The notes below the pieces were generated by a model. The model made no database searches, was not told the origin of the DNA, and saw only the letters and a list, made by a program, of their open reading frames with translations. Position numbers and translations under genes: made by a program. From positions 1 to 64,000 of the forward strand of contig JAFTVF010000003.1 in the NCBI GenBank assembly GCA_017465865.1: 64,000 bases of DNA, in the 5' to 3' direction. The DNA is from Clostridia bacterium. GTDB taxonomy: Bacteria; Bacillota; Clostridia; Christensenellales; Borkfalkiaceae. Shown here piece by piece: positions 18,837-22,794 of the stretch; the first letter of the stretch is position 1, and each line of letters opens with the position of its first letter.

Positions 18837-19568
18837 ATGACAGGACGTATCCATTCTTTTGAGTCCTTCGGTACGGTGGACGGGCCGGGTATACGTTTCG
18901 TCGTATTCCTGCAAGGCTGTCCCTTGCGCTGTCAGTACTGCCATAACCCCGATACCTGGGGCGCGGGCGGTACGGAATATACCGTGGAAGACGTGGTCCA
19001 ACGCGCGCTGAAATATAAAAACTATTTCGGCGATCAGGGCGGCGTAACGGTAACGGGCGGCGAGCCGTTGTTGCAGATCGGTTTCGTTACCGAACTGTTC
19101 ACCGCGCTCAAACAAAAGGGCGTGCATACCTGCGTAGACACTTCGGGGATCACGTTCGATCCCGAAAACGCCGCGAGCGTGGAAAAGCATAAAAAGCTGT
19201 TGGAAGCGTCCGATTTATTCCTGCTCGATATCAAGCATATCGACGACGAGGCTTGTAAAAAGCTGACGGGGCAGAGCAACGCGCATACGCTTGCGTTTGC
19301 GAAATTCCTCAGCGATCACGGGAAGCCGATTTGGATACGGCAAGTGCTCGTGCCGGGGATTACGGACGACGACGAGAGCCTTGCGCGGACGCGCGCGTTT
19401 ATCGATACCCTTACTTCGGTGGAAAAGGTAGAGGTTTTGCCCTACCATACGATGGGCGTGGTGAAATACGAAAAGCTGGGCTTGGAATATCCCTTGAAAG
19501 AGGTGTCCGCGCCGACGAAAGAACGGGTAATGAACGCGAAACGAATATTGATAGGTGATAACCGATGA
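18837..19568 (+). CDS. pflA: Pyruvate formate-lyase activating enzyme (radical SAM)
   Basis: Uses a [4Fe-4S] cluster and S-adenosylmethionine to abstract hydrogen from a glycine of formate-lyase, installing the glycyl radical. The 243-residue length equals the family norm. Motifs: GTVDGPGIRFVVFLQGC, the cluster ligands Cys28, Cys32 and Cys35 (CPLRCQYC), and TVTGGEPLLQ for SAM binding. ATG follows AGGAGGAA; an upstream in-frame start overlaps the leader hairpin. Its target here is most likely the separate 77-residue radical protein encoded further down, not PflB itself, because this PflB has no radical domain. The stop overlaps the next start as ATGA. Confidence 0.96.
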   Translation: MTGRIHSFESFGTVDGPGIRFVVFLQGCPLRCQYCHNPDTWGAGGTEYTVEDVVQRALKYKNYFGDQGGVTVTGGEPLLQIGFVTELFTALKQKGVHTCVDTSGITFDPENAASVEKHKKLLEASDLFLLDIKHIDDEACKKLTGQSNAHTLAFAKFLSDHGKPIWIRQVLVPGITDDDESLARTRAFIDTLTSVEKVEVLPYHTMGVVKYEKLGLEYPLKEVSAPTKERVMNAKRILIGDNR

Positions 19569-19882
19569 ACGTAGTAGATTACAAAGAACACTTAAAAGGG
19601 CTTTGTTGCGTGGAGATCAGCGGGGAGTCCTGTGCGAACTGCTTAACGCTGATGCCGATACTCAAAACGCTGTGCAAGGCGCGCGGCGACGTACGGCTGG
19701 TGCACGTGGAAGCGGATTATTCCACTCTGCCTTTGATGGAGGCTTGGGAAGTGGAGAAAGTGCCGACGATCTTGCTCGTTGAAGACGGCGAGATTTTTGC
19801 GAGATGTTCGGGTTTTCAGCCTGAGGAGATCCTCGAAATTTGGTTGGACGCGAAAATCGAGGAACGCAAGGCGAAAAAGTAA
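19565..19882 (+). CDS. Thioredoxin-like protein in the pfl locus
   Basis: A 105-residue thioredoxin-fold protein. It has a redox pair Cys23-x-x-Cys26 in GESCANCLTLMPIL, the acidic strand LVHVEADYS, and the cis-proline turn EVEKVPTILLVEDGE. The active site SCANC differs from the classical WCGPC, and there is no signal peptide, so it is cytoplasmic. The start codon overlaps the pflA stop (ATGA), implying coupled translation with the activase. A role in reducing or protecting PflA or the pfl proteins is possible but is inferred from position only. It could also serve a general thiol function. Confidence 0.85.
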   Translation: MNVVDYKEHLKGLCCVEISGESCANCLTLMPILKTLCKARGDVRLVHVEADYSTLPLMEAWEVEKVPTILLVEDGEIFARCSGFQPEEILEIWLDAKIEERKAKK

Positions 19883-19982
19883 AGTTAGAAAACAAAATTT
19901 GTGTTTTTTCATAGCCGAAAGCGTTTGAAAAGACGGAAATTTGTTGATAAATAAAGGAAATAAATTGATAGGAGTTACTGAT

Positions 19983-22016
19983 ATGATGCAATACAAAGGT
20001 TGGGAAGGCTTTCTTCCCGGTAAATGGTGCAACGACGAAGTAGACGTACGCGATTTCATTCAGCGTAACTACACGCCGTACGAAGGCGACGCGAGCTTCC
20101 TTGCTCCCGCAACGGAGGCTACGAAAAAGCTCTGGGATATCGTTTGCGATCTGTCCAAGAAAGAGCGCGACGCAGGCGGCGTTCTGAACGCGGATACGAA
20201 GGTCGTTTCCACGCTCACTTCCCACGGCGCAGGATATTTGGATAAAGATCTTGAAAAGATCGTAGGTTTGCAGACGGACGAGCCGTTCAAGCGCGCTTTG
20301 CAGCCGTTCGGCGGTATCCGTATGTCCGAGGGCGCTTTGGAAATGTACGGCTACCAGATCGATCCCACCGTTAAAGAAATTTTCACAAAATACCGTAAAA
20401 CGCACAACGAGGGCGTTTTCGATGCGTACACGCCTGAAATGAGAGCGGCGCGTTCGGCGCACATTCTGACGGGTCTTCCCGACGCATACGGCCGCGGCCG
20501 TATCATCGGCGACTATCGCCGTGTGGCTTTGTACGGCGTAGATTACCTCATTCAGAAGAAAGAAGAGGACAAACTCGCGATCAACGGCGACATGACCCCC
20601 GATAAGGTAAGAGATCGCGAAGAGATCGCGGATCAGATCAAAGCGCTCAAAGCGCTCAAAGAAATGGCGGTTATCTACGGCTGCGATATTTCCAAGCCCG
20701 CTGAAACGGCGCAACAGGCGATCCAAGCTCTGTACTTTGGCTACCTTGCGGCGGTTAAAGATCAGAACGGCGCGGCAATGTCCATCGGCAGAAACACGAC
20801 GTTCCTCGATATCTATATCCAGCGCGACCTCGACAAGGGGCTTATCACCGAAGAACAGGCGCAGGAATATATCGATCATTTCGTAATGAAACTTCGTATC
20901 GTGAAGTTCATGAGAACGAAAGAATACAACGAATTGTTCTCGGGCGACCCTACCTGGGTTACCGAAGCAATCGGCGGTATGGGCGTAGACGGCAGATCGC
21001 TCGTTACCAAAACGTCCTTCCGTATCCTGCACACCCTTGACAACCTCGGTCCTGCACCCGAACCCAACCTTACGGTTCTGTGGTCGAAGAGATTGCCCGT
21101 AGCGTTCAAGAGATACTGTGCGGAGATCTCTATCCGTACCTCCTCCATTCAGTACGAAAGCGACGATCTGATGCGTCCTGAAATGGGCGACGACTACGCG
21201 ATCGCTTGCTGCGTAAGCTGTATGAAAGTCGGTAAAGACATGCAGTTCTTCGGCGCGAGAGCAAACCTTGCAAAATGCTTGCTGTACGCAATCAACGGCG
21301 GTAAAGACGAGATCATGAAAGACAAGAAGACGGGCAAGCCCATGCAGGTTTCCCCCGAATTCATGCCGATCACGAGCAACGACGCGCTTGATTTCAACGA
21401 AGTCTGCTCGAAGTTCGACAACATGATGACGTGGCTTGCCGATCTGTACGTGAACACGCTCAACCTTATCCACTATATGCACGATAAGTACAGCTACGAA
21501 GCGTTGGAAATGGCGCTCCACGACACGAAAGTACGCCGTTTCTTCGCAACGGGTATCGCAGGTCTGTCCTGTGCGGCGGACGCGCTTTCCGCGATCAAGT
21601 ACGCGAAAGTATACCCCGTTCGTAACGAAGACGGTATCGTAGTGGACTACCGCATCGAGGGCGACTTCCCTAAATACGGTAACAACGACGACAGAGCGGA
21701 CGAGTTGGCTGTATGGATCTTGAAGACGTTCATGAAGAAAGTCAAGAGCCACTACACCTACCGTGAAAGCGTTCCTACGACCTCGATTTTGACGATCACG
21801 TCCAACGTCGTATACGGTAAGAAGACGGGTAACACGCCCGACGGCAGACGCGCAGGTACGCCTCTTGCACCCGGTGCGAACCCCATGCACGGCAGAGATT
21901 GCAACGGTGCGCTTGCATCGCTGGAATCGGTTGCAAAACTGCCTTACGAGTATTCGAGAGACGGTATTTCCAACACCTTCTCGATCACTCCCGGCTCGCT
22001 TGGTAAAGAAGACTAA
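19983..22016 (+). CDS. pflB: Pyruvate formate-lyase catalytic subunit lacking the glycyl-radical domain
   Basis: Formate acetyltransferase core, 677 residues against about 760 in E. coli. The active-site pair Cys409-Cys410 is present in [10 protein letters not shown], the region that accepts the acetyl group from pyruvate. Homology continues through [20 protein letters not shown] and [16 protein letters not shown] and then stops. In ordinary PFL about 80 further residues follow, including RVSGYAV with the radical glycine; that segment is encoded by the next gene in another frame. The ATG (double ATG, AGGAG eight bases upstream) is standard. Activity should require the partner protein and PflA. 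A simple frameshift is unlikely (see findings). Confidence 0.93.
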
Positions 22017-22035
22017 GCGTAAAAAAGCAATATTC

Positions 22036-22073
22036 CTCGGCGGCGGTCGTACAGGTTTGAGGACCGCGCCGAG
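22036..22073 (+). promoter_or_regulatory. Stable hairpin between pflB and the glycyl-radical gene
   Basis: CTCGGC and GCGGTC (one bulged G) pair with GACCGC and GCCGAG around a loop of about 13 nt. No T run follows, so it is not a normal terminator. It could be a processing or stability element setting the ratio of the two proteins. Confidence 0.5.
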
Positions 22074-22110
22074 CGGATATAGAATATAATAAAGAAAAGG
22101 AGATAATATT

Positions 22111-22344
22111 ATGTCGAACAGAGTAGATAATTTGGTTAATATGTTAGACGGTTACGTCGGCGACGGCGGTTACCACCTTAACGTAAACGTTTTCAATCGC
22201 GATACTCTTTTGGACGCGCAGGCGCATCCTGAGAAGTATCCTCAGCTCACCATCCGCGTTTCCGGTTATGCGGTAAACTTCATCAAGCTTACCAAGGAAC
22301 AGCAGGATGACGTTATTTCCAGAACCATTCACGAATCCATGTAA
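22111..22344 (+). CDS. Stand-alone glycyl-radical subunit of pyruvate formate-lyase (GrcA/YfiD-like)
   Basis: A 77-residue protein equal to the C-terminal domain of [23 protein letters not shown], then [18 protein letters not shown] with the radical glycine at Gly52, and [19 protein letters not shown]. Its last residues align without gaps to the E. coli PflB terminus. It has its own strong AAGGAGATAAT site and an intact ATG, so it is built to be translated separately. E. coli GrcA is a known spare part with a similar domain, but there a full PFL exists as well. In this window no full-length PFL is present, so this looks like an obligate subunit activated by PflA. Confidence 0.92.
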
Positions 22345-22431: not shown

Positions 22432-22794
22432 ATGTTCGTTTTATACGCTTATAATAACGGCAAATGGACGGAATTTTGTTCTTTTGCCGACAAGTACGAC
22501 TATGCCGCGCAGGTAAGCTCTGCCGTTGCGAAAAAGAAAACCGCAACGACCGACGAAATGAAAAATTCCGCAATCGTTATGGAAAGTTTCGTGCTCGGCA
22601 AGCAATTTTACGGCAAGCAATACGGCAAGCTCGTGATGCGCGCTCTGCGCCATTTCGACGAAGTAGGGCTGTCTAACGATATTCAAGCCTCGCTGGAAGA
22701 GCTGTTGGACGAGGGCTGCGAGAAATTTGCGCTTGTCAGACCGAGCGAAAAGCCCGAAGACTATACCGAGGGCGGGTTTGAAGTCCGCATTTAA
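22432..22794 (+). CDS. Unknown 120-residue protein
   Basis: I do not recognise the family. The sequence starts MFVLYAYNNGKWTEFCSFADK and has a charged middle, an amphipathic helix-like stretch (GKLVMRALRHFDEVGLSNDIQ, split) and an acidic end EDYTEGGFEVRI. There is no signal peptide or membrane segment, so it should be cytoplasmic. A strong AAAGGAGGGAAT site lies at the correct distance. It lies directly after the pfl terminator and nine bases before the secreted metallo-hydrolase gene, suggesting a transcript with that gene. Confidence 0.75.
   Translation: MFVLYAYNNGKWTEFCSFADKYDYAAQVSSAVAKKKTATTDEMKNSAIVMESFVLGKQFYGKQYGKLVMRALRHFDEVGLSNDIQASLEELLDEGCEKFALVRPSEKPEDYTEGGFEVRI

Follow-up and report, generated by a model that had tools for sequence, protein, structure and literature searches.

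A probable obligate two-subunit pyruvate formate-lyase with its radical glycine on a separate 77-residue protein

Pyruvate formate-lyase (PFL) has a central place in anaerobic sugar breakdown, and the textbook enzyme bears its radical glycine on the same chain as the rest. In the 64,000-nucleotide stretch of DNA from a gut-type Clostridia bacterium that was analysed here (the window), PFL is encoded in two pieces, one a protein of 677 aa that has the cysteine pair and the other a protein of 77 aa that has the radical glycine. Judged from sequence, the two very probably constitute an obligate two-subunit PFL, in which the larger protein would be the catalytic core and the smaller one a dedicated, exchangeable radical cofactor subunit. 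Because many other anaerobes have kept the split arrangement, it appears that the radical cofactor of such enzymes is replaceable and not a fixed domain.

The genes concerned all lie on the forward strand. The first, pflA (18837..19568), specifies a radical-SAM PFL activase of 243 aa counted from the ATG at 18837; read from 18834, it scores 311.9 bits against TIGR02493 (cut-off 231.75), and pflA homologues are present at 18 of the 19 split loci fetched from the same family and order. Between pflA and the core gene is a gene for a thioredoxin-like protein of 105 aa with a CANC motif (19565..19882; Pfam Thioredoxin, E = 4.9e-9). The core gene (19983..22016) follows an AGGAG ribosome-binding site (19970..19974), starts at the ATG at either 19983 or 19986, and ends at a stop codon at 22016, the C-terminus of its product being SLGKED. 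After 94 bp, and in a different reading frame, comes the gene for the glycyl-radical subunit (22111..22344), which has its own ATG at 22111 and its own strong ribosome-binding site, AAAAGGAG (22095..22102). A preliminary description of this DNA had proposed that the core stops after LGKED, that the radical domain is encoded next with a ribosome site and ATG of its own, and that the cysteine pair and the radical glycine thus reside on different proteins, all of which holds (C409 and C410 are on the core, G52 is on the small protein). (Note that an open frame of 120 aa, with no Pfam family above cut-off, occupies positions 22432-22794 directly downstream of the small gene.)

The core has been kept as a PFL. 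Against TIGR01255 it scores 1079.6 bits (equivalog cut-off 994.2) over profile positions 2-662 of 744, and it is 65% identical to E. coli PFL across 663 residues, reaching E. coli residue 678. Residues C409, C410, W325, R173 and R426 of the core correspond to C418, C419, W333, R176 and R435 of the E. coli enzyme, so that all of them are retained; we take R176, W333 and R435 to be active-site or substrate-binding residues. Sequence by itself cannot tell the substrate, and the pair could in principle be some other glycyl radical enzyme, such as one of the ketobutyrate or dehydratase type. We consider this exceedingly unlikely, given that the core on its own passes the PFL equivalog cut-off, with the other models listed reaching at most 173.1 bits, that the identity to E. 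coli PFL is high and the active-site residues are kept, and that a PFL-type activase adjoins.

The radical glycine is absent from the core chain and is instead found on the small protein, where G52 lies within the motif RVSGYAV and aligns with E. coli G734. The small protein covers TIGR01255 positions 665-744 of 744 (E. coli 681-759), leaving only the short unmatched linker that had been anticipated. The break does not coincide with the beginning of the radical domain as defined by Pfam, contrary to what had first been supposed, but falls inside Gly_radical, with positions 2-48 of that family on the core and positions 52-106 on the small protein. Of all models, GrcA3 (NF038360) scores highest for the small protein, with 158.2 bits against a cut-off of 158 in the protein search and 157.4 bits in the genome search; the cut-offs of GrcA and GrcA2 are not reached. 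Residues 18-77 align with residues 68-127 of YfiD and are preceded by 17 residues, as compared to 67 in YfiD. Outside the YfiD-aligned stretch the small protein carries a segment that matches E. coli 681-692, and it is about 12 residues longer than the part of the PFL fold that is duplicated in YfiD (E. coli 693-759).

Strong purifying selection acts on both genes, neither of which is an error or a pseudogene. In pairwise comparisons between the window and eight relatives, dN/dS was 0.042-0.084 for the core gene and 0.005-0.058 for the small one (in some comparisons dS is above 1, which makes the ratio rough); the pseudogene that the preliminary description had allowed for is therefore not what the core gene looks like. 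We also regard it as next to impossible that the halves are made as a single chain after all, through a programmed frameshift or stop read-through, or that an assembly error separates them. Across 20 split loci, the window's own included, the gap between the genes ranges from 20 to 243 bp and all three frames occur, with an ATG and a ribosome-binding site similar to that of the window before the small gene. Among loci of the window's class (those in which the core has no C-terminal extension, see below) the gaps are 14-107 bp, with lengths that vary modulo 3, and every small gene inspected has a GGAG-like ribosome site 5' of it; in other classes the gap is as long as 325 bp. Although the gap length is divisible by 3 in five of the 20 loci, which places the core and the small gene in the same frame, the variation of the gaps modulo 3, together with the ribosome site, argues that the arrangement is not a frameshift, and the split recurs in many separate assemblies.

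The gap in the window contains a stable hairpin (22030..22080; z = -4.74), and 0 of 200 shuffled sequences fold equally well. It was rejected as a terminator, there being no T run 3' of it; it may set the ratio of core to small protein. Low z-scores were also obtained for the gaps of loci L043, L045 and L057, weaker ones for L046 and L056, and none for L020 and L061 (z-scores are not comparable where the gap is coding). In some close relatives the gap hairpins are in the same place and unrelated in sequence, and in others they are absent.

A further explanation of the locus is that the small gene is a spare part of the GrcA/YfiD type and the short core a damaged PFL, with an intact PFL elsewhere in the genome. 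The GrcA3 score of the small protein in the protein search, though not that in the genome search, would fit this explanation, as would the presence of more than one small gene in several genomes. The remainder of the evidence points the other way, and the explanation is in our judgement very unlikely: the long N-terminal part of YfiD is absent from the small protein, the core has a dN/dS of only 0.04-0.08, and no intact PFL was found in the genomes with the split that were searched. In the window's own genome (1.42 Mb, 73% complete) PF02901 matches two genes and PF01228 gives five matches; taken together these comprise both halves of the pair, an enzyme of PFL2 type, NrdD and one match that stays under the cut-off. 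Thus, the remark in the preliminary description that no full PFL is visible extends to the whole assembly, in that profile searches of this genome, at 73% completeness, found none intact. Two candidates for a second PFL were rejected: the 843-aa product of a gene on contig C9 scores highest against TIGR01774 (PFL2-3) and is below the cut-offs of named enzyme models, and the gene on contig C16 is NrdD. (The C9 locus, L001 285-4172, is outside the window and holds, by eye only, an apparent activase and a shell-protein gene beside the PFL2-type glycyl radical enzyme.)

The same split was found in related genomes, as had been proposed as a check. Among 61 genomes of the family, 18 have the split, 13 have an intact PFL, five have incomplete matches only and 25 have none; none of the 18 split genomes, 16 of which are at least 90% complete, has an intact PFL as well. 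(In one of the 18, G004, the core is broken across two contigs.) The order sample of 121 genomes includes 41 with a PFL above cut-off, 36 of them intact and five split. The class survey gave a stand-alone radical subunit (in a frame of less than 300 aa) in at least 24 of 392 genomes, and in the phylum survey of 299 genomes a stand-alone subunit is clear in two, that of the window and G377, with two more candidate matches in frames of 198 and 252 aa. (One high-scoring radical match in G718, from the class survey, is in a frame of 789 aa.)

A limitation of the split to the window's family was rejected, for by record titles it extends to several phyla. Species genomes were scanned with an alignment of the small subunit and the best 80 loci, from at least 589 stretches, were kept; the radical protein has a gene to itself in 78 of these best 80 loci and is part of an intact PFL in two. 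Their record titles include Ruminococcus albus, R. bicirculans, R. flavefaciens, Parablautia intestinalis, Lancefieldella rimae, Olsenella uli and several Gastranaerophilales MAGs. In 17 whole genomes, chosen by hand from those behind the 80 loci, no uninterrupted PFL was found in any; a core above cut-off is present in 16, and in the 17th just a fragment of a core was seen. (In G478 a core and a radical match share one frame, but stops intervene.) Four of the 17 genomes (G476, G478, G482 and G484) have two radical subunits and one core.

The pair can be set beside several known systems. Ordinary PflB (TIGR01255; E. coli structure 1H16) is alike in its core sequence, cysteine pair, W333, R176 and R435, RVSGYAV loop and PflA, but differs in that here the radical glycine is on a separate protein and the core ends at E. 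coli 678. GrcA/YfiD of E. coli and Y06I of phage T4 are, like the small protein, small stand-alone radical domains that serve a PFL core in trans; unlike the small protein, YfiD repairs an intact PFL that has been cut by oxygen, and no intact PFL was found here. The NCBIfam model for GrcA3 (kind 'exception') names an autonomous cofactor, and the match output for it mentions no split partner. Two PDB chains titled 'Formate acetyltransferase', 38la (687 residues) and 38lb (739 residues), look like cores of split-type enzymes: 38la ends exactly at SLGKED, whether as a natural end or as a cut construct, and 38lb has the cysteine tail of coriobacterial split cores. Both are from lineages other than that of the window (the nearest loci are 78% and 84% identical), and among the PDB chains that match the small protein none is a split radical subunit. 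The end of 38la and the tail of 38lb imply that others apparently study such cores.

The preliminary description had known of no described obligate split PFL. That statement stands as far as papers are concerned, in that literature searches turned up none on a split PFL by title or start of the abstract (preprints were outside their scope, and large result lists were seen in part). The split is nevertheless not unknown, since NCBI names the small protein GrcA3 and since 38la and 38lb resemble such cores; what is new here is the cysteine element at most split loci that is described below. Annotations of a 'truncated pflB plus GrcA' should be read as one enzyme and not as a pseudogene together with a repair protein. 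Moreover, with such an obligate split occurring naturally in common gut bacteria, radical installation, docking and transfer between chains could be studied with separate parts that can be mixed.

We envisage that the small subunit docks on the core, its N-terminal helix and HLNVNV strand being the most likely contacts. PflA, encoded upstream, would put the radical on G52 while the small subunit is docked or partly docked, the radical would pass from G52 to core residue C410, which corresponds to E. coli C419, and pyruvate would then be cleaved as in ordinary PFL. Both the installation of the radical on the docked subunit and its transfer would be in keeping with the known chemistry of one-chain PFL. 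Oxygen cutting at the radical glycine would cost only the 77-aa piece, which could be replaced. The preliminary description held that the radical would have to be made on the free small protein. This is not required: according to a study of YfiD (PMC8683613), E. coli YfiD is not robustly activated without a damaged PFL core, and docking before activation is on that account the likelier order. The same study states that YfiD residues 61-127 share the fold of PFL residues 693-759, that an E. coli core cut at residue 695 shows no detectable binding of YfiD, and that this pair is activated 32-fold worse. In light of the result with the 695 cut, a core that ends at about 678 cannot be presumed to work with any radical domain, and its natural radical partner must, on this argument, bind the core better than YfiD binds the 695-cut E. 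coli core. We infer that the segment equivalent to E. coli 681-692 may be the docking segment, and that it belongs to the stretch which a third protein copies (see below). A second report (PMC12338860) describes an E. coli strain with PflB G734A that makes formate with GrcA and none without it.

In a tree of the core part, one clade holds all split cores and comprises 54 split rows and five intact ones; in a careful core tree the clade consists of 34 split and five intact rows, with support of 99/97 (the split counts in both trees include the two PDB cores, 38la and 38lb, which were labelled split by choice). The five nested intact PFLs (L018, L019, L022, L023 and L112) stand among split rows of the window's class, and it is their position inside the split-core clade that suggests re-fusions. 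A split-only clade was rejected by an AU test (p = 2.1e-5, valid only if the group is named before the tree is seen), and with it a single origin of the split without reversal. The minimum is five changes, although strongly supported branches force only three in the larger tree and two in the careful one. We prefer one fission followed by about four re-fusions, a history that the tree alone cannot separate from repeated fission. Switching of this kind, from one chain to two or back, suggests that the one-chain and two-chain forms of PFL do the same job.

To class the split loci we used 81 loci, namely L048 and the best 80 named ones. Two of these are intact, and in 26 the core end was not found by motif (16 with and 10 without a third protein). 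Of the remaining 53, 12 have no core extension, as in the window; 20 have a core extension that contains two or more cysteines, and lack a third protein; and in 21 the core extension has fewer than two cysteines and a third protein of about 70-80 aa is encoded between the core and the radical subunit. The cysteine tail and the third protein never occur together, and no extended core has both or neither (20 versus 21 loci). Most split loci carry a cysteine element: in the window's class a thioredoxin-like gene, and elsewhere either the cysteine-bearing end of the core or the small third protein.

Examples of the third protein are at L099 3653-3898, L095 3650-3925 and L048 5642-5866, with 34 further loci. 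At E < 1e-10 a profile of the third protein matches 36 of the 80 named loci as well as L048, none of the 19 window-class loci of the family and order, and none of 33 intact loci (20 of which have short flanks); 20 of the 37 matched proteins were used to build the profile and match by construction, and 17 lie outside it. At weaker E (down to 1e-7) the profile also matches radical subunits, as a shared start predicts: the N-terminal 29 columns of the third protein match the N-terminus of the radical subunit (hhalign probability 92.9, E 3.7e-7). At the C-terminus, two invariant cysteines take the place of the radical loop. Searches of NCBIfam with eight of the proteins and of Pfam with six gave no family above cut-off, and the PDB gave no match below E = 0.38; the sole telling family match is a weak one of the N-terminus to GrcA3. 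For pairs that are more than 70% identical and have a computable dS, dN/dS of the third protein was 0.03-0.17 (dS is saturated in many pairs).

The thioredoxin-like gene is found 5' of the core at 16 of 18 readable split loci of the family and order, the window counted, and at all 11 readable named loci of the window's class (one of these, L062, is the same DNA as family locus L020); each homologue found has a CxxC motif. The gene is absent from L044 and L047, which indicates that the window's class can do without it at that place. It was found at none of the five nested intact PFL loci, where pflA is followed directly by pflB.

These patterns lead us to a tentative proposal, one that is possible but on balance rather doubtful. 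With the radical subunit off, the cysteine pair of the core would be exposed; the split classes might each be paired with a thiol partner; and the third protein, with a helix and strand that would imitate those by which the radical subunit docks, could be a placeholder in the seat of the radical subunit, guarding or reducing the cysteines until that subunit arrives. Every class would, on this proposal, need a thiol partner, and the shared ancestry of the operons could also be the source of the pattern. If the proposal is true, radical enzymes would be modular, with separate parts for the core, the exchangeable radical cofactor and a plug for the resting state. The linked thiol partners, provided that they act in this way, would represent a new type of accessory protein for glycyl radical enzymes. 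Benzylsuccinate synthase and 4-hydroxyphenylacetate decarboxylase have small cysteine-bearing accessory proteins, the radical glycine staying in the large chain. The third protein resembles these in being small and cysteine-bearing.

At 12 of the 80 best named loci no core lies within the fetched stretch; in 10 of them (L067, L076, L080, L083, L089, L090, L094, L108, L123 and L135) the radical subunit is coreless there, and the other two (L113 and L134) are at a contig end. Two of these genomes were searched: that of L108 has a core elsewhere and a second radical subunit, and that of L080 has a piece of a core and a second radical subunit. In a plasmid collection, R. bicirculans gave no match. 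Four loci (L059, L060, L086 and L087) have odd record titles (Acholeplasmatales, Bacillales, Muribaculaceae and a proteobacterium), and we take them to be mislabels or transfers. L059 and L060 group with the window's class in the tree, and L087 is placed among the Gastranaerophilales; L086 is outside the tree, and its core tail is like that of the Gastranaerophilales.
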